The notes below the pieces were generated by a model. It saw only the letters and a list, made by a program, of their open reading frames with translations. It was not told the DNA's origin and ran no database searches. Shown here piece after piece: positions 6,615-14,701 of a stretch of 22,598 nt of DNA (positions within the stretch are counted from its first letter, which is position 1; every line of letters begins with the position of its first letter). The DNA lies in IMG/VR virus record IMGVR_UViG_3300021962_000702, positions 1-22,598 of that record; one strand, written 5' to 3'. Source of the DNA: a virus. Position numbers and translations under genes: made by a program.

Positions 6615-6992
6615 TAGACGGAATTTTGCATAAGGTATGGATAACATTTCATCAAGTTCGTCATACTTTACTATGTGAAGTTTTCCTGCAACTTCTTCCC
6701 AAGTATATTGTCTTCCTTCTCTCCAATGAAAATTAATCGCTTTAAATCCCCATCTCTCCAATGAAGTACAAGCAATCAATGGATGTTGATCATATTCAAT
6801 TTCTGGTGTTTTTGGATTGTAAATGAAGGTATAAAACTTTCCTGGTTCAGGATATAATACTTCTTCTTTGAGTGTATCCATAATAATTAACATCAAGTCT
6901 TCTGGATCATTAGTTCCAGCATCAGCAATTTTCTTTTTGAGTTCTCTCATTCGTGGAGGAACATTAGCATACTGACCGAAACCTTGTGCCAT
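6606..6992 (-). CDS. Conserved phage protein of unknown function
   Basis: A 128-residue protein between gp4 and gp48 in the late operon. I recognise it as a type often found in T4-like cyanophages but know no function. Visible features: an N-terminal helical part (PPRMRELKKKIADAG; EDLMLIIMDTLKEEV), then FYTFIYNPKTPEIEYDQHPLIAC and WGFKAINFHWREGRQYTWEEVAG, a beta-rich aromatic segment. There is no signal peptide or membrane segment. The ATG shares one base with the gp4 TAA (TAATG), so translation is probably coupled. Position suggests a head or tail completion role, but this is context only. Confidence 0.75.
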   Translation of the reverse strand: MAQGFGQYANVPPRMRELKKKIADAGTNDPEDLMLIIMDTLKEEVLYPEPGKFYTFIYNPKTPEIEYDQHPLIACTSLERWGFKAINFHWREGRQYTWEEVAGKLHIVKYDELDEMLSIPYAKFRLNK

Positions 6993-7438
6993 TATCGTGA
7001 GTTAAAAAGTTCTTCTTCTGTAATGACTTTAAATTCTAACATTCTATCAGCACACCACTCTTGTGCTGCTTTCCACTTTGCTTGATTGACTGCATAAGTT
7101 CTACATTCGTGTAGATAAGATTTAGTCACTCTTGATTTTTGTTTTGGTGGAACGGTTTGTTTCTTTGGTTTCACCTCAATCACATAAGTCTTAATTTTAC
7201 CAGATGACTCTTTAACTTTGATTAAGTAGTCTGGAAAGTATCGATGCACTCTACCATCAACAGGAGAAACATAACCAATACAAAACTCTTCTGATGCCCA
7301 AGAAATAATACTTGGATTGTGATCACAGTAATAACAAAATTTGCGTTCCCAACTACTTCTGCAAATTATGTTATTTGCGTCACCTTTATACTTTTCTGGA
7401 TAAGATGGTTTATAGATACTCTTAATACTTTCTGCCAT
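6992..7438 (-). CDS. gp4: Head completion protein gp4
   Basis: A 148-residue protein, close to T4 gp4 (150). MAESIKSIYKPSYPEKYKGD opens it, followed by IICRSSWERKFCYYCD, SWASEEFCIGYVSPVDGRVHRYFPDYLI, YVIEVKPKKQTVPP and KAAQEWCADRMLEFKVITEE. The SSWER, E(E), FPDY and EVKPKK elements follow a PD-(D/E)XK-like nuclease pattern seen in this family. In T4, gp4 completes filled heads before tail joining. The frame is open back to 7684, but the late promoter at 7476-7468 lies inside that extension, so ATG 7438 is chosen; it leaves a leader of roughly 25 bases. It is the first gene of the minus-strand operon. Confidence 0.8.
   Translation of the reverse strand: MAESIKSIYKPSYPEKYKGDANNIICRSSWERKFCYYCDHNPSIISWASEEFCIGYVSPVDGRVHRYFPDYLIKVKESSGKIKTYVIEVKPKKQTVPPKQKSRVTKSYLHECRTYAVNQAKWKAAQEWCADRMLEFKVITEEELFNSR
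7411..7418 (+). promoter_or_regulatory. Possible variant late promoter for the gp54-like gene
   Basis: TATAGATA (7 of 8 to TATAAATA) lies on the plus strand inside the start of gp4, 59 bases before ATG 7477. It is the only reasonable late-type element found upstream of that gene. One mismatch makes it weak. Confidence 0.22.
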
Positions 7439-7467
7439 TTCCAGCATACATAATATATCAGTAAAAG

Positions 7468-7476
7468 TATTTATAG
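7468..7476 (-). promoter_or_regulatory. T4-like late promoter CTATAAATA driving gp4-128aa-gp48-gp53
   Basis: On the minus strand the bases from 7476 to 7468 read CTATAAATA, a perfect match to the T4 late consensus TATAAATA. Transcription would start about 10 bases further on and leave a short leader before the gp4 ATG (7438). It fits head, tube and baseplate genes being late and fits gp33 being encoded nearby. The site ends one base before the ATG of the divergent gene at 7477. Confidence 0.8.
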
Positions 7477-8523
7477 ATGGCAACGCCACCACTAACGAGA
7501 GAGGAGTATCAAAGATTATTTCCATCTTTTGTTGAGATGTTTCCTGAAGGTAATTATGGACCATCTGAAGCAACTGGAGTTCCTCGTCAAACATCAGATC
7601 CAAATCAATCGGGAGATGGAACAAGTCCTGGTAATGGGCAATCTGCTGATAATCGTATTTTTGCAGGTAATGTAGCACCATCAATAAAAGTTGCAGATCA
7701 GATTAAAGAAAAACTTCTTCGTCCAGCATTAACTTCTCATTATCAATGTTGGTTTAATCCTCCAGAGAAAGTTTATAACTGGATTAAAGATAATAAGGGA
7801 TTTGATTATCGTGGTTTTGGTAATGGCAATCAAGAACTAATATCTTTATCTTGTAGTGAAGCAGCATTACCAGGATCTTCATTTATGACCAATGAGATTA
7901 CTGATGATCACACTGGAGTCACTGAGAGACACGCATATCGTAGAGCATATGATGATCGTACTGATTTTACTTTTTATGTAGATCACGGACGACCAGATGG
8001 AAATTATAATGTTCTTTGGTTTTTTGAGAAATGGATGCAATATATTGCAAATGAAGAAGATGCGAATGGATTGGAAAGTCGTCAGTTTAATTATAGAATT
8101 AGATTTCCGGAAGACTATTATAGCGATGAATTGTTTATCAATAAGTTTGAAAGAGATTTGAAAGGACAATTCTTACAGTATAAATTTATGCAAGCATATC
8201 CAATCAGCATAAATTCAATTCCTGTTTCTTATGAGTCTTCTCAACTTCTTAAGGTAACTGTTTCCTTTACCTATACACGTTATTTGACGAAGAGATATAA
8301 TAATATTGCACCACAAGATCTTGGCCAGCAACGTGCTACAGGAGTTCCAAATCCACCAACTTCTTCGCAGGCAAGACAGAATACAAATGCAACGCAACCT
8401 GCAGGAATACTTGCTGATGGGGAAGATCCTTTGTTTAACACTCGTAGGATAACGCCAATTACCGATAGAACAAATAGAGTTAGAAATAGAAATCAGGTTA
8501 TTACCGGAGGATTCATTCGGTAA
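7477..8523 (+). CDS. gp54: Tail-tube-fold structural protein, likely gp54 (tube initiator)
   Basis: A 348-residue protein. Residues 1-60 are Pro/Gly/Ser/Asn-rich, and the end (from about 275) is Gln/Asn/Thr-rich. The core reads LTSHYQCWFNPPEK, LISLSCSEAALPGSSF, DRTDFTFYVDHG, LWFFEKWMQYI, YRIRFPEDYYSDELFI, LQYKFMQAYPISINSIPVSYESS and LLKVTVSFTYTRYL. This is the order of strands and helix in the gp19/gp54 tail-tube family, including the final YP..I..I..SY and TV.FTYTRY elements. gp54 starts the tube on the gp48 cap. Next to gp48/gp53 and gp26 this is the best guess; another tube-like baseplate protein is possible. No clear Shine-Dalgarno precedes the ATG, which almost touches the divergent late promoter. 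Confidence 0.68.
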   Translation: MATPPLTREEYQRLFPSFVEMFPEGNYGPSEATGVPRQTSDPNQSGDGTSPGNGQSADNRIFAGNVAPSIKVADQIKEKLLRPALTSHYQCWFNPPEKVYNWIKDNKGFDYRGFGNGNQELISLSCSEAALPGSSFMTNEITDDHTGVTERHAYRRAYDDRTDFTFYVDHGRPDGNYNVLWFFEKWMQYIANEEDANGLESRQFNYRIRFPEDYYSDELFINKFERDLKGQFLQYKFMQAYPISINSIPVSYESSQLLKVTVSFTYTRYLTKRYNNIAPQDLGQQRATGVPNPPTSSQARQNTNATQPAGILADGEDPLFNTRRITPITDRTNRVRNRNQVITGGFIR

Positions 8524-8563: not shown

Positions 8564-9283
8564 ATGCCTTTACCTAAGATTTCGACGCCAACTTATGAAC
8601 TTGAGTTGCCTTCAACCGGACAAAAAATTAAGTATAGACCTTTTCTTGTAAAAGAAGAAAAACTATTGGTCATTGCATTGGAATCTGAAGATACAAAACA
8701 GATTACTAATGCAATTAAGACCGTAATTAAAAACTGTATTGAAACTAAGGGAGTTAAAGTAGAAGCACTTCCTACGTTTGATATTGAATATCTTTTCCTA
8801 AACATTCGTGGAAAGTCTGTTGGGGAAGAAATTGAAGTTAATATTATCTGTCCTGATGATGGTGAGACACAAGTTCCGGTAAAAATTAATATAGATGATA
8901 TTCAGATTCAAAAGGATCCGGAGCATAATAATAAAATTAAACTTGACGACTCAATTATGATGGAAATGAAATATCCATCATTGGATCAGTTCATTAAGAG
9001 TAATTTTGATCTTTCATCGGATAGTACGATGGATCAATCATTTGAATTGATTTCTTCTTGTATTGATAAGATTTATACTGAAGATGAAGTTTGGGTAACT
9101 GCAGATGTAACCAAAAAAGAACTTATGGAGTTCTTAGATCAAATGAACTCGACACAATTCAAAGAAATTGAAAAGTTCTTTGAGACAATGCCCAAACTTT
9201 CTCATACTATTAAGGTCAAAAATCCAAATACTGAAGTTGAAAATGAGGTCGTATTGGAGGGACTCTCAAGTTTTTTCGCATAG
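8564..9283 (+). CDS. gp26: Baseplate hub assembly protein gp26 (T4_baseplate family)
   Basis: A 239-residue protein starting MPLPKISTPTYELELPSTGQ, with IKYRPFLVKEEKLLVIALES, FDIEYLFLNIRGKSVGEEIE, CPDDGETQVPV, MKYPSLDQF, ELMEFLDQMNSTQFKEIEKF and FETMPKLSH. This is the T4 base-plate family (gp26), well kept in cyanophages. T4 gp26 is needed to assemble the central hub. The ribosome site AGGAC lies 3 bases before the ATG. The gene ends at TAG 9281-9283, directly after T TTT TTC; a -1 slip there would enter the next small ORF and make a 299-residue fusion. With large tape-measure-like genes following, it could act as a tail assembly chaperone (inference). Confidence 0.85.
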   Translation: MPLPKISTPTYELELPSTGQKIKYRPFLVKEEKLLVIALESEDTKQITNAIKTVIKNCIETKGVKVEALPTFDIEYLFLNIRGKSVGEEIEVNIICPDDGETQVPVKINIDDIQIQKDPEHNNKIKLDDSIMMEMKYPSLDQFIKSNFDLSSDSTMDQSFELISSCIDKIYTEDEVWVTADVTKKELMEFLDQMNSTQFKEIEKFFETMPKLSHTIKVKNPNTEVENEVVLEGLSSFFA

Positions 9284-9320
9284 GGATGAGTCATATGGAC
9301 CTGGAGAGTTACTTCAGGTT
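9256..9320 (+). promoter_or_regulatory. Putative -1 programmed ribosomal frameshift signal at the end of gp26
   Basis: T TTT TTC at 9271-9277 is an X_XXY_YYZ heptamer in the gp26 frame (AGT TTT TTC GCA TAG). GGAGGG at 9256-9261, 9 bases upstream, resembles the internal Shine-Dalgarno that stimulates dnaX frameshifting; it is too far from ATG 9286 to serve as an ordinary ribosome site. Downstream, GACCTGG (9298-9304) can pair with TCAGGTT (9314-9320), a modest stem with two G-T pairs, about 20 bases past the heptamer and thus farther than usual. The -1 frame continues without a stop into the ORF ending at 9462. Confidence 0.55.
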
Positions 9321-9462
9321 AAACTTTTCCTTGATGCAGTATCATAAATATTCATTAACAGAGATTGAAAATATGATGCCTTGGGAAAGGGACATTTACG
9401 TGATCTTGTTGAAACAGCATCTGGAAGAAGAAGAACTCAAACAACAACAGCAGCAGCGATAA
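9286..9462 (+). CDS. Small ORF in the gp51 position, likely the frameshift extension of gp26
   Basis: 58 residues from ATG 9286: DLESYFRLNFSLMQYHKYS, LTEIENMMPWERDIYVILL, then an acidic and Gln-rich tail (EEEEL.QQQQQ). A second ATG at 9295 is possible. The pattern LxEIxxMxPWERDxYxxLL is typical of short C-terminal domains of tail assembly chaperones. In T4, gene 51 (hub assembly catalyst, 249 residues) follows 26, so this may be a much-reduced gp51 equivalent. ATG 9286 has only a poor ribosome site (AGGG touching it). The ORF is open in the -1 frame of gp26, so it may be made mainly as a gp26 fusion. Its TAA abuts the ATG of the next gene. Confidence 0.7.
   Translation: MSHMDLESYFRLNFSLMQYHKYSLTEIENMMPWERDIYVILLKQHLEEEELKQQQQQR
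9343..9350 (+). promoter_or_regulatory. Possible late promoter CATAAATA before the first tape-measure-like gene
   Basis: CATAAATA, a NATAAATA-type octamer, lies inside the small ORF 113 bases before ATG 9463. It could give the two large tail genes their own late start. Internal to a coding sequence, so moderate to low confidence. Confidence 0.35.
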
Positions 9463-11760
9463 ATGGCATCAGTATCCGAAAAAATTGATGAAAGAATTTT
9501 AAGGCTACTGGGTCTTGAGGATGTTTTTGACCTTGATTATGATACTTATCTAACTCTTCTTAAGGAAGCAATTGTTACCGGATCAAAGAGGTTACCTCAA
9601 GAAGAACTTGCATTACTTGCTAATGAACGAAAAAGGGTAAGAGGAAAGAAAGGTAGATTTAAACCAAAGAAAGATAAAATAACTGCAGGTAAAGTTGCAA
9701 CAACAAAGTTTCTAAAACCAGAAAAGAAAACATTAGCACTTCCACCTTCACCAACAACTTCTTCAGAAGAAGGAGGTGGATTTGTTGGAATTAAAAAAAC
9801 ATTAGATTCTATTTTAAGTACTTTAGGATCTAAGTTTAAGTTTGATCAAAAGCAAGCAGATCAAGATAGAAAAGAAAAAGAGACAGAAAAAAGAGGAAAG
9901 AGAGAAGCATCATTAGAGGGATTTAAAAAAGGTGTTGCTGGAATCGTAGCAACTACTAAAAAATTACTTGATCCTTTTCAAGCAATCATTGATCGTATTT
10001 GGAAATTCATATTCTTTACTTTACTTGGTAGAGCATTCACTAAGTTTATGGAGTGGATGAGTGATAAAGGAAATCAAGAAAAGTTTAATTCCTTTATAGA
10101 ATTCTTAACGGATCACTGGCCTGCTCTTGCTGGTCTTTATGTTTTATTTGGAACTAGTTTTGGAAAATTAGTACGTGGATTATTAAAAGGTGCAACAAGA
10201 ATGATCGTTGCACTTGCAACCAATATTCCAAAAATCTTTGGATTCATTCGTAAAAATAAAAAACTTGCATTCCTAGCACTTGCTGCCGCACCATTAGTAA
10301 GTAGAGAGATTGGAAATTTATTTGCGGATAAAGAAACACCGGAGTCTGGTTTAATACCAACGAAGAATCTAGAGTTAGACCAAGCAAAACAATCCGCAGA
10401 TCAAGCAGCAAATACTAAAGTTCCAACATTAAATTTTGGTGGAATGGTTCCTAAGTTTAATTTTGGAGGAATGCTTCCAACATTTGCAATGGGAGGAATG
10501 GATTTTTCAGGTGGTGTTCCAATTATGGGTGCAGGTCAGGATGATACTCTAATTGCAGCAAAAACTGGTGAAGCAATTCTGACTGAAAAAGATCAGCAAG
10601 ATATTGGTCAGAGATATGTTGATAGAAATACTGGACAACCTTTAAACATTCCTCAGTATCTTGCAGGAAGAAAACCAGGATCTGTTGCTATGGGTAACTT
10701 AAGATTTCCTGGATTTGGTGGTGGGTTTTTTAATGGAGGAATGATATCTAAGTTTAAAGACGGTGGAATTGTTGGTGGATTTAGTGGCGGAACAAGTCAA
10801 TTTGGAGAAGTTCCTCTTGTTAGAGCAGCGTTATCTTCAGGAATAAAAGGACAAGAGTTAGCGGCATTTTTAGCACAGATGTCTCACGAGACTGGTGGAT
10901 TTAAATGGAGCAGAGAACTTGGAAGAGGTGAAGGAATGGGATATAGTGGTGGAAGTAGATATCACGGAAGAGGATATACTCAACTTACTCACGACTATAA
11001 TTACAGACACTTTGGAAAAAAATTAGGAGTTGATTTAGTAAAAGATCCTGATTTGTTATTAAAAGATCCTAACCTATCAGCAAGAGTTGCTGTAGAATAT
11101 TGGAAAGAAAGAGTAAGACCAAAAGTTAAAGATTGGAGTAATGTTCTTTCGCACTCTGCAGCAATTAATTATCCAGCAGCAACATCACCTGAACAAATAG
11201 TTGGATATAGTGATAGAGCAAATAAGTTCAATTATTATCTCAAGAATTTAAAATCAATTGTAGCAAGGAGCACTCCAAAACCACAGGATAAACCAAAGAA
11301 AAAGTCTCCTGGACTTTTGGAAAATTTTGCATCCTTTATGCCTACTTCACTTTCATTTTTTAGGGGTGGATTAATTAAAGAAAATACCGGAATGAATGTT
11401 AAAGGAGCAACGGCAGATAGACAGCATATTCTTGCTCAACCTGGTGAATATGTTCTTCCAGTTGATACGGTAAATCGTCTTGGAACTTCTTTAATTGATA
11501 AACTTGTTGCTATGACCGATAGCAACTCTAATCCATATTTGGGAAGAGGAACTGTAAGAAAACCGCAGATTACTCCTTATAACGCTTCTGCATTTAATCG
11601 TGGTGGTATGATGACTCTACCTCCAATTACACAATCTGCAGGAGGAGGAAGAGCAAGGTCTGCTGGTCTTGGTGGTGGTTCTGAAGTTCCTGAGTTTTCT
11701 GCAACTGCTCCTGGTAATGAAAGAGCAATAAATGCAAGTATTTACGGATTGGTAGGATAA
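9463..11760 (+). CDS. Large tail protein, tape-measure-like, with embedded GH19 chitinase/lysozyme domain
   Basis: A 765-residue protein. The N-terminus is helical and Lys-rich (1-165), followed by hydrophobic segments around DRIWKFIFFTLLG (177-189), LAGLYVLFG and KLAFLALAAAPL, as in tape-measure proteins. Then come Gly/Phe/Met repeats (NFGGMVPKFNFGGM) and GEAILTEKDQQ. Residues about 449-597 form a GH19-type glycosidase: FLAQMSHETGGF with E476, SREL with E485, RYHGRGYTQLT (499-509), NYRHFGKKLGVDL and PDLLLKDP. GH19 enzymes cut beta-1,4 glycan chains, here probably peptidoglycan during DNA injection. A second QPGEYVLP motif lies nearer the C-terminus. It shares the FIFFT..LG motif with the next gene. 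It sits where a tape measure is expected (after gp26), so a gp29-like role is likely but unproven. Confidence 0.72.
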   Translation: MASVSEKIDERILRLLGLEDVFDLDYDTYLTLLKEAIVTGSKRLPQEELALLANERKRVRGKKGRFKPKKDKITAGKVATTKFLKPEKKTLALPPSPTTSSEEGGGFVGIKKTLDSILSTLGSKFKFDQKQADQDRKEKETEKRGKREASLEGFKKGVAGIVATTKKLLDPFQAIIDRIWKFIFFTLLGRAFTKFMEWMSDKGNQEKFNSFIEFLTDHWPALAGLYVLFGTSFGKLVRGLLKGATRMIVALATNIPKIFGFIRKNKKLAFLALAAAPLVSREIGNLFADKETPESGLIPTKNLELDQAKQSADQAANTKVPTLNFGGMVPKFNFGGMLPTFAMGGMDFSGGVPIMGAGQDDTLIAAKTGEAILTEKDQQDIGQRYVDRNTGQPLNIPQYLAGRKPGSVAMGNLRFPGFGGGFFNGGMISKFKDGGIVGGFSGGTSQFGEVPLVRAALSSGIKGQELAAFLAQMSHETGGFKWSRELGRGEGMGYSGGSRYHGRGYTQLTHDYNYRHFGKKLGVDLVKDPDLLLKDPNLSARVAVEYWKERVRPKVKDWSNVLSHSAAINYPAATSPEQIVGYSDRANKFNYYLKNLKSIVARSTPKPQDKPKKKSPGLLENFASFMPTSLSFFRGGLIKENTGMNVKGATADRQHILAQPGEYVLPVDTVNRLGTSLIDKLVAMTDSNSNPYLGRGTVRKPQITPYNASAFNRGGMMTLPPITQSAGGGRARSAGLGGGSEVPEFSATAPGNERAINASIYGLVG

Positions 11761-11764
11761 TCAA

Positions 11765-14701
11765 ATGGCAAAAATAACCAATCCTTCAAAACTACTACCA
11801 TCAGCAAAATCAACTGCGATCACAAGAGTTGGAAAACCTAATATTCTCGCAAAGACATCTCCACTCTCAAAAGGTTTATTAGCAAAAAGAGAAAATAAAG
11901 ATGCTACGGATGCAAACAATAAATTAGTTAAAGTAGATAAGTTTCTAAAATCAGATCTTATAGTCTCTAAAAAGAAAGCAGAAGTCAAGAGAAAGGAGAC
12001 TGAAAAAGAAGATTTTGCAGAAGCAGAAAAGAAATTAGAAACACCACAATCTAAAAAATTCAAACTTCCTGGAATTTCTTTACCTTCCTTAGGTTTTATG
12101 GATAGGGTAAAGAGGTTTATATTCTTTACCGCACTTGGATGGGCACTACCAAAAATACTTGAATTCTTACCTAAACTTCAAGGATTTGCAAATATTATAG
12201 GTGGTGTTTATAACTTTGCTGAAGGATTATTTGGTAAGTTATTTGATGGTTTTATGAGTCTCGTCAAGTTTGGTGGAGACTTAAAAGATAAAACACTTGG
12301 ATTTATTGCAACAGCAAAAGCAGGTGTAGGTGGAAACTACCAAAAAGAATTTGATAAATTAGAGAAGCAATTTAATACTTTTGTAAATGCTTCCATTATT
12401 GCTGGAGTTCTTGCTGCAGATATTGGTGGTGCTGCGGTTGATGAGTTTAACAAACAAAGAAAAAAGGGACAGAAACCTGAACCTGGAAAACCCGGATCAA
12501 AAGCAGGTGCAAAGGCGGGATCAAAAGTAACAACGGGAAGAGGTGGAGAGAAACCAAAAGGAAAACCGAAAGTAACAACTGGAAAGGGTGGTAAAGTTCC
12601 TTCTTGGTGGAATAAAATGCTTCGTGGGCCTTTTGCAAAACTTAAAGGTCCTTTAAGTAAATTTGCAGGTGCTGCTGTTCCTGGACTAGGTGCTGCTGTT
12701 GGTGCTGCTGATGCAAAGGCAAGATTCGCTGCTGGTGATAAAATAGGAGGTTCAATTGCATCAGTATCTGCAGGTATTGATGGCATTAGTACCATTCTTG
12801 CATTAACTGGAGTTGGTGCTGTAGTTGCGGTTCCTCTTAGTGTCGTAAGTATGGGACTTGATGCAATACTCTTGATTAATGATATTGGAAAAGTAATAAA
12901 AGAAACTTGGCCAATGATGGGATGGCTTCCTACATTTAGAGGTGGCGGAAGAGTTGTTCGTAAGTATCAAGGCGGTGGAACTACAAGAGGTGGAAGACCA
13001 GTAGGAGCACCAAAGAGAAGAGGAATTACTCCAAGAAAAAGAAGAACAGTATTTAAACTAACTCCACCTAAATCTCAACCAGGTAAAGACATTGGTGGGG
13101 AAAAAGAAATAAAGAAATTATATCCTGATCCTGATAAGATGATGACCTTAGATGAATTTAATAGAAGTCCTATGGGACAGGGTTCATATAATTATAATAT
13201 GTATAAGGATGATTTTAAGAAGAGAACTAAAAAACCAAATCCATATAAAGCACTTACTGGAACTGCAAAGATACTGAAAGATATTCCATTAGTCGGTGGA
13301 TTAATGGGTGCTGCTGTTGATATTGCACTTGGACAAAAACCAGATGTAAGAGTTTATCGTTCTATTGCATCTGGTATTGGAAGTCTTGTAGAAAGTCTTG
13401 CAAATCAAAAAACAAATCAAAGTATAACTTCTTTGATGAGAGACATTAGAGGTTTTGCTGAAGGTGGTAGTGTTCCTACATCAAGACAACTTAGAACTGA
13501 TACTAAATCTCTAAGTTCCGGTGATTTAATTTCTAAACTTCTTGAGACAACAATCATACAAAAAGTAAATGATGCAATTCAAAATCTTGAAAAAGAATTG
13601 AATTTAAAAGGTGGTAAAGGTAAAGATGGTGAGGGACCACCTGGACCTCCTGGAGAAGGTGAGACACCTGGAGCAAAACTCAGAGAAGGAAATAATGCTC
13701 AGATTGAAGCAGATCTTTTAGAGTATTTCACTGCATTATACGGCAAACCTGCAGCACTTGGAATTGTTGCTAACTTACAAAGAGAAAGTGGATATAGAAC
13801 AAGAACTCCAGAAAATAAAACTTTTGAAGGGATGGCCCAATGGGATAGAAAAGATAGATGGCCACGATTTGAAAAGTGGGCAAAAAGTAAAGGTCTTGAT
13901 CCATACAATAGAAACACTCAAGCACAATATATTGCAGTTGAACTAAAACAATATGGAACAGATAAAAGATTAAAACAAGCAAAATCACCTGAGTGGGCAG
14001 CACAACTTTTTTATGAAGAGTTTGAAAAGGGTGCGGATACTGGTAAGTATAGTGGAAGTGATACTGAAACTAAACACCTGAAATTTTTGGAAGATATTAA
14101 AAAAAGAAATCCTGATATTGGAAAGAGGTCTGGTGAAGTTGTAGTAAAGCCAGCAGCAAAACCATTGACACCAAGCGGTCAATATGTTCCTAGTGAAATG
14201 GGAACTAAACTTTCTGGTGATCTTGGTGATTTTATGAAATCTTGGGGAGGTGTTCCTGGATCAATACACCAACACTCTAGACACGGAGGACAAGGAACAA
14301 GATCTTATCCTTCATATCATAATGTCGATAGAGCAATTGATTTAGGAGCAAATGCTAATGAGCAAGGTCCTATTCTAAAGAAAATTGAAGAGTTTAATAA
14401 ACTAAAAGGAGTTAAACCAGTTCAACTTTTACACGCTGGAAATGATTCAACAGGTGATCACGATGATCACGTTCACGTAGCATATCAGGGTGGTGGTATA
14501 GTACCAAGAAAACCAAATCGTCCAATTCCAAACTCCTTTGCATCTTATGAAACTTATGGAAGTGGAATGATGATTGCAATTCAACCAATTATTGTTGAGA
14601 AACAAGTTCCAGTTTCTGGTGGTGGAAACAAGATGATTGCATTCCCAGTTCCAGTTGCTGTAAATAGTAATATGGATAACCTAAGTTTCAGTAGAGGATA
14701 A
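11765..14701 (+). CDS. Large tail protein, tape-measure-like, with lysozyme-type and LAS-type peptidase domains
   Basis: A 978-residue protein. It has a Lys-rich helical N-terminus, then DRVKRFIFFTALGWALPKI (FIFFT at 118-122) like the preceding gene, Gly/Lys-rich linkers, and hydrophobic segments (GISTILALTGVGAVVAVPLSV). A short collagen-like GPPGPPG run lies near 629. Residues about 643-775 resemble phage tail lysozyme: YFTALYGKPAALGIVANLQR followed by ESGY (E674), GMAQW, RFEKWA and AAQLFYEEFEKGAD. The C-terminal part has SYHNVDRAID (H852, D859), fitting SxHxxGxAxD apart from the G, and HDDHVHV (H902, H904), a LAS-type zinc peptidase pattern. It probably cleaves both glycan and peptide bonds of the host wall on injection. 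AGGAT lies before the ATG. Confidence 0.72.
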   Translation: MAKITNPSKLLPSAKSTAITRVGKPNILAKTSPLSKGLLAKRENKDATDANNKLVKVDKFLKSDLIVSKKKAEVKRKETEKEDFAEAEKKLETPQSKKFKLPGISLPSLGFMDRVKRFIFFTALGWALPKILEFLPKLQGFANIIGGVYNFAEGLFGKLFDGFMSLVKFGGDLKDKTLGFIATAKAGVGGNYQKEFDKLEKQFNTFVNASIIAGVLAADIGGAAVDEFNKQRKKGQKPEPGKPGSKAGAKAGSKVTTGRGGEKPKGKPKVTTGKGGKVPSWWNKMLRGPFAKLKGPLSKFAGAAVPGLGAAVGAADAKARFAAGDKIGGSIASVSAGIDGISTILALTGVGAVVAVPLSVVSMGLDAILLINDIGKVIKETWPMMGWLPTFRGGGRVVRKYQGGGTTRGGRPVGAPKRRGITPRKRRTVFKLTPPKSQPGKDIGGEKEIKKLYPDPDKMMTLDEFNRSPMGQGSYNYNMYKDDFKKRTKKPNPYKALTGTAKILKDIPLVGGLMGAAVDIALGQKPDVRVYRSIASGIGSLVESLANQKTNQSITSLMRDIRGFAEGGSVPTSRQLRTDTKSLSSGDLISKLLETTIIQKVNDAIQNLEKELNLKGGKGKDGEGPPGPPGEGETPGAKLREGNNAQIEADLLEYFTALYGKPAALGIVANLQRESGYRTRTPENKTFEGMAQWDRKDRWPRFEKWAKSKGLDPYNRNTQAQYIAVELKQYGTDKRLKQAKSPEWAAQLFYEEFEKGADTGKYSGSDTETKHLKFLEDIKKRNPDIGKRSGEVVVKPAAKPLTPSGQYVPSEMGTKLSGDLGDFMKSWGGVPGSIHQHSRHGGQGTRSYPSYHNVDRAIDLGANANEQGPILKKIEEFNKLKGVKPVQLLHAGNDSTGDHDDHVHVAYQGGGIVPRKPNRPIPNSFASYETYGSGMMIAIQPIIVEKQVPVSGGGNKMIAFPVPVAVNSNMDNLSFSRG

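Follow-up and report, generated by a model that had tools for sequence, protein, structure and literature searches.

We have analyzed the gp26 locus in a 22,598-base fragment of a T4-like cyanophage genome (the whole of this stretch is called here the window). Judged from its sequence, the gp26 protein is a member of the T4 gp26/gp51 family PF12322 (E = 4.5e-79; 265.6 bits, against a family cut-off of 24.5), and it matches phrog_150 over positions 5–232 of 282. The gene sits between that of the tail tube protein and that of a tape-measure-like protein, the latter assignment being a weak match. The features of the locus are:

7477–8523, + strand: tail tube protein gene, upstream, in the position of lambda V (PF23849, E = 1.1e-13; phrog_45, E = 1.7e-30)
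8564–9283, + strand: gp26, the putative short tail assembly chaperone, 239 amino acids when read without a shift, G-like (PF12322, phrog_150)
9256–9261, + strand: GGAGGG, possible internal Shine-Dalgarno stimulator, 9 nt 5′ of the heptamer (sequence, codon enrichment)
9271–9277, + strand: slippery heptamer T_TTT_TTC, in phase (sequence, conservation, synonymous fixation)
9277–9462, + strand: −1 frame extension, a T-like tail, annotated in relatives as gp51, baseplate hub assembly catalyst (phrog_634)
9278–9337, + strand: downstream RNA hairpin, probable 3′ stimulator, with an inner stem pairing 9298–9306 with 9312–9320 (folding, covariation)
9281–9283, + strand: zero-frame stop codon TAG, one codon past the heptamer
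9286–9288, + strand: ATG of a stand-alone 58-amino-acid ORF, a start that is not conserved (no ATG near the junction in 35 of 102 representatives)
9463–11760, + strand: tape-measure-like protein with a GH19 domain, downstream, in the position of lambda H (phrog_8927, PF00182)

An earlier note on this DNA had described the genes that follow as resembling tape measures. This holds in part. The proteins encoded at 9463–11760 and at 11765–14701 have weak tape measure matches (E = 1e-5, to phrog_8927, and E = 2.6e-8, respectively). The first also carries a chitinase-type GH19 domain (PF00182, E = 1e-14), and the second a phage tail lysozyme domain (E = 5.9e-16). On the other strand, the longest ORF for a head-closure protein (6992–7684, − strand) runs into the tail tube gene; it matches its family from residue 86 onwards, so that the real start is probably internal.

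The gp26 coding sequence ends with AGT TTT TTC GCA TAG. It was this arrangement that led the earlier note to propose a programmed −1 frameshift joining gp26 to the short ORF that follows, in the manner of the lambda G/GT tail chaperones. The heptamer is indeed present in the correct phase, and the −1 frame is open to 9462 as claimed. After a −1 slip the reading would be SFF-RIGMSHMDLESY, with a stop codon at 9460–9462 and a product of 299 amino acids.

The conservation of the heptamer was examined in 209 loci, 171 of which are non-redundant. They were drawn from Kyanoviridae, Emdodecavirus, Menderavirus, Pootjesviridae, Ackermannviridae, those Straboviridae that lie outside the T4 pattern (Aeh1, phage 65 and a KVP40-like phage), and phages of Pelagibacter, Methylophilales and Ochrobactrum. 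An Ackermannviridae-like set of 17 is treated separately below, leaving 154. No variation in the heptamer is seen among close relatives from IMG/VR (80/80). In every one of the 154 loci a T_TTT_TT[C/T/G] sequence is found in phase, 0–6 nt ahead of the gp26 stop codon. The position of the motif within the gene is equally restricted. Among 103 gp26 representatives sharing <85% nucleotide identity (24,566 codon positions), T_TTT_TT occurs in phase 101 times, and 96 of these occurrences fall within the last four codons.

Synonymous positions were analyzed in 96 representatives, again with <85% nucleotide identity. The first phenylalanine codon of the site is TTT in all 96; elsewhere in gp26 64% of phenylalanine codons are TTT and 36% TTC. 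The codon ahead of it is AGT, TCT, GAT, AAT or GCT, with T always as its third base. Naive probabilities for these two observations are ~10^-18 and 10^-20, respectively, values that are optimistic given the relatedness of the sequences. On this codon evidence, the alternation between AGT and TCT shows repeated change under one constraint. Of 225 scorable codon columns, 9272–9274 is the only one with zero synonymous variation. Conservation of the heptamer solely for a Phe-Phe dipeptide is ruled out by this synonymous fixation, and its chance occurrence is ruled out by the same fixation taken together with the conservation and the clustering at the end of the gene. The conclusion that emerges from these comparisons of sequence is that the observed motif is real, far beyond chance.

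The sequence read in the −1 frame is that of a recognizable protein segment. It matches phrog_634 with E = 1.9e-28, and it also matches the C-terminus of phrog_150 (positions 241–281, E = 6.8e-5); there are therefore members of the gp26 family that have both parts in one chain. With a single exception, the relatives keep the −1 frame open for 152–206 nt beyond the gp26 stop codon. The junction of 23 of the 102 representatives has neither ATG nor GTG nor TTG nearby, and translation begun at the first start codon that follows would in many cases lack conserved residues of the tail. The tail thus behaves, as far as these alignments indicate, as an extension and not as a separate gene. It is present and unannotated after position 2217 of the Aeromonas phage Aeh1 locus (L088), after 2241 of that of dinky (L086) and after 2250 of that of 3M (L098).

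We also compared the locus with the corresponding genes of T4. T4 gp26 and T4 gp51 both belong to PF12322. T4 gp26 matches phrog_150 at positions 14–235 and T4 gp51 at positions 13–280, and T4 gp51 matches phrog_634 in addition. When aligned, T4 gp51 is co-linear with the predicted fusion across the junction, in one frame, and T4 gp26 ends where the unshifted gp26 ends. Neither a slip site nor a tail was found in T4 gp26 or its AbTZA1 counterpart. The number of PF12322 genes per genome follows the same division: two in 4/4 genomes of the T4 pattern, and one in 15/15 other genomes checked. Two genes in one group thus stand against a single gene with a slip site in the other. A search with the gp26 of the window gave one match within its 22.6-kb record, which is a fragment of the genome.

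The distance from the GGAGGG on the 5′ side of the heptamer to ATG 9286 is 24 nt, and to ATG 9295 it is 33 nt, too long for normal initiation, in agreement with the view of the earlier note that the element is badly placed to initiate the next ORF. Its codons are enriched at this site. GGG is used at the conserved glycine in 27/94 cases compared with 37/587 elsewhere (p = 3e-9), and GAG precedes that glycine in 43/77 cases compared with 577/2220 elsewhere (p = 6e-8). This enrichment fits a Shine-Dalgarno-like stimulator in the cyanophages only. The suggestion that the element acts as in dnaX is to that extent plausible, but it does not extend to the site in general. As a universal feature the element was rejected, being absent from phiM7, R10Z and others.

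On the 3′ side the RNA (about 9278–9340) folds into a hairpin of −24.2 kcal/mol (z = −3.99; 0/200 shuffles). Over 96 representatives, the RNA 3′ of the heptamer folds better on average than its dinucleotide shuffles, with a mean z of −1.8. In the subclade of the window the inner 9-bp stem has compensatory changes in 26 relatives, with 18 double-changed cells (0/500 shuffles). In a sister subclade the hairpin is instead one of 5 bp; it is 98.2% paired and has 12 double-changed cells (0/500 shuffles). A different stem, with a single compensating pair, is present in the S-PM2 group. We looked for covariation in the stem of a fourth clade (A6) and saw none. The stems were picked from the same sequences in which they were tested, and the shuffles ignore relatedness, so that the covariation figures are to be read as support and not as proof. 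A single universal stimulatory hairpin is ruled out, since the subclades differ in their stems and that of A6 is without covariation.

We consider it very probable that a tail assembly chaperone of two forms is made from this locus by programmed −1 ribosomal frameshifting of the G/GT type. The anatomy of the locus, its conservation, the open −1 frame, the co-linearity with T4 gp51 and the paralogue count all point to this, and they give the frameshift and the lambda analogy of the earlier note strong comparative support. The tail might instead be a gene in its own right: translation of the 58-amino-acid ORF would be coupled to the gp26 stop codon and begin at ATG 9286 or 9295, with the heptamer merely encoding Phe-Phe. 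An ATG does lie close to the stop codon in 67/102 representatives, annotators assign two genes in relatives, and the phage S-SCSM1 retains an ATG-started tail outside the −1 frame. Yet separate translation would leave unexplained the fixation of synonymous positions within and before Phe-Phe, and it accords poorly with the 23 representatives that lack a start codon near the junction, where the first available one is often inside the conserved tail. The tail is moreover fused in one frame in T4 gp51, and in the window ATG 9286 has no Shine-Dalgarno sequence at normal spacing. Two separate genes are accordingly a very unlikely arrangement.

A fusion could also arise without any ribosomal slip, if the mRNA gained a base through transcriptional slippage on the T run. 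C48C1, HTVC008M and Atu_ph04, where seven or eight T stand in a row, would lend themselves to this. In the window and 140/154 relatives, however, the run is short, six T and then a C, as suits slippage of tandem tRNAs, and the downstream hairpins with their compensatory changes fit stimulation of the ribosome; we regard a transcriptional origin as extremely improbable. There is finally the possibility that both products are made, a frameshifted long chaperone together with a free tail peptide initiated independently. This would add to programmed frameshifting and is not an alternative to it. ATG codons at 9286 and 9295 are present in the window and in many relatives, but they are not kept across lineages, and we think such a peptide unlikely. 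We know of no role for it.

Several lineages depart from the common pattern. In S-SCSM1 (L089, MK867354.2; ~2215–2245) an 11-nt insertion past the gp26 stop codon closes the −1 frame; the gp51 tail now lies in the +1 frame and has an ATG of its own. This is the sole such break in the 171 non-redundant loci; the insertion may be genuine, or it may reflect a sequence error. The Ackermannviridae-like loci (L086, L091, L094, L095, L098 and L182–L196) have lost the upstream half of the heptamer and kept T_TTC_A. ATT, GTT, GCT or CTT precedes TTC, and the −1 tail is still open; the remaining sequence suggests that slippage there would need to involve a single tRNA. In L101, L199, L200, L210 and L211 there are runs of eight T ending at the gp26 stop codon, and in these lineages transcriptional slippage could add to ribosomal slippage.

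A tentative scheme, to which we give slightly less than an even chance, would make the frameshift ancestral to a wide T4-like assemblage, with three fates. In one, T_TTT_TTN is retained with lineage-specific, interchangeable stimulatory hairpins. In another, that of the Ackermannviridae, the site is reduced to T_TTC_A; re-pairing is impossible at the upstream codon there, which would leave a single tRNA-Phe to slip. In the third, that of T4 and its close relatives, the gene has been duplicated. We found no description in the literature consulted of hairpins with compensatory changes or of the reduced T_TTC_A site, the work of Vladimirov et al. (2022) being known to us through papers that cite it.

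Under programmed frameshifting the majority of ribosomes would terminate at 9281 to give gp26, the short form. A minority would slip back by one base with tRNA-Phe on TTT and TTC (9272–9277), resume at CGC (9277–9279) and bypass the stop codon, giving the 299-amino-acid long form with its gp51-like tail. The Shine-Dalgarno-like sequence 5′ of the site and the hairpin 3′ of it would probably raise the rate of slipping. The short and long forms probably both bind the tape measure protein, and by analogy with lambda gpG and gpGT the tail of the rarer long form would recruit tube or hub subunits. That slippage takes place, how often it does so, what each RNA element contributes and which partners the two forms bind are inferences. 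An AlphaFold2 model of gp26 (pLDDT 85.5) gave no significant match in a Foldseek search of the PDB; the HK97 chaperone gp13 (2ob9) was among the weak matches (E = 1.4, probability 0.21, TM 0.42 by target length). For the functional analogy with the chaperones we rely on the order of the genes, on the frameshift and on what is published for T4.

Were the two-form reading correct, the dosage of the chaperone would apparently be set by frameshifting in one branch of the T4-like phages and by two genes in the other, offering a clean comparison of two routes to one protein pair. The gene model at the gp26/gp51 locus is probably wrong in many deposited T4-like genomes.

According to Atkins et al. 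(2016; PMC5009743), long-tailed phages, T4 excepted, have kept the G/GT frameshift. The locus shares with lambda G/GT (Xu, Hendrix and Duda, 2004, as summarised in PMC5009743) the order tube, chaperone, extension, tape measure, and an in-phase slip near the 3′ end where a −1 shift gives short and long forms. It differs in belonging to PF12322, another family by sequence, in its T_TTT_TTC site, and in coming from a contractile-tailed T4-like phage. In T4 itself the short form, gp26, and the long form, gp51, are of the same protein family as here, but they are the products of two paralogous genes with no frameshift, in contrast to the one gene and slip site seen in the genome fragment of the window phage.

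As represented in papers citing it, the study of Vladimirov, Gautam and Davidson (2022; Virology 566:9–15) identified T4-like tail assembly chaperone genes; it is credited with the two-gene solution in some T4-like phages by PMC10885494, and with poly-T −1 frameshift signals in T4-like chaperone genes by PMC12846349. By these accounts the link between T4 hub assembly proteins and tail chaperones, put forward as new in the earlier note, had already appeared in print, in outline at the least. What the present analysis may add to that work is the evidence on hairpins, the range of loci surveyed and the variant of the Ackermannviridae. In Pseudomonas phage Adele and the Vandenendeviridae (PMC12846349) the gene of the short chaperone likewise has a poly-T motif close to its end, and the −1 frame is open family-wide; this is another phage family, with GTTTTT as its motif.

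The gp51 of cyanophages and marine vibriophages has been reported to be ~20% of the length of other gp51 proteins, without the first ~200 residues, and gp51 was listed as missing in Aeh1 (Sullivan et al., 2010; PMC3037559). The shortened gp51 is the same ORF as the tail described here, read there as a reduced gene. Unlike in that reading, the missing N-terminus would here be supplied by gp26 through the frameshift, which accounts for the long-noted "reduced" gp51 of these phages, and the gp51 of Aeh1 is recovered as an unannotated −1 frame.
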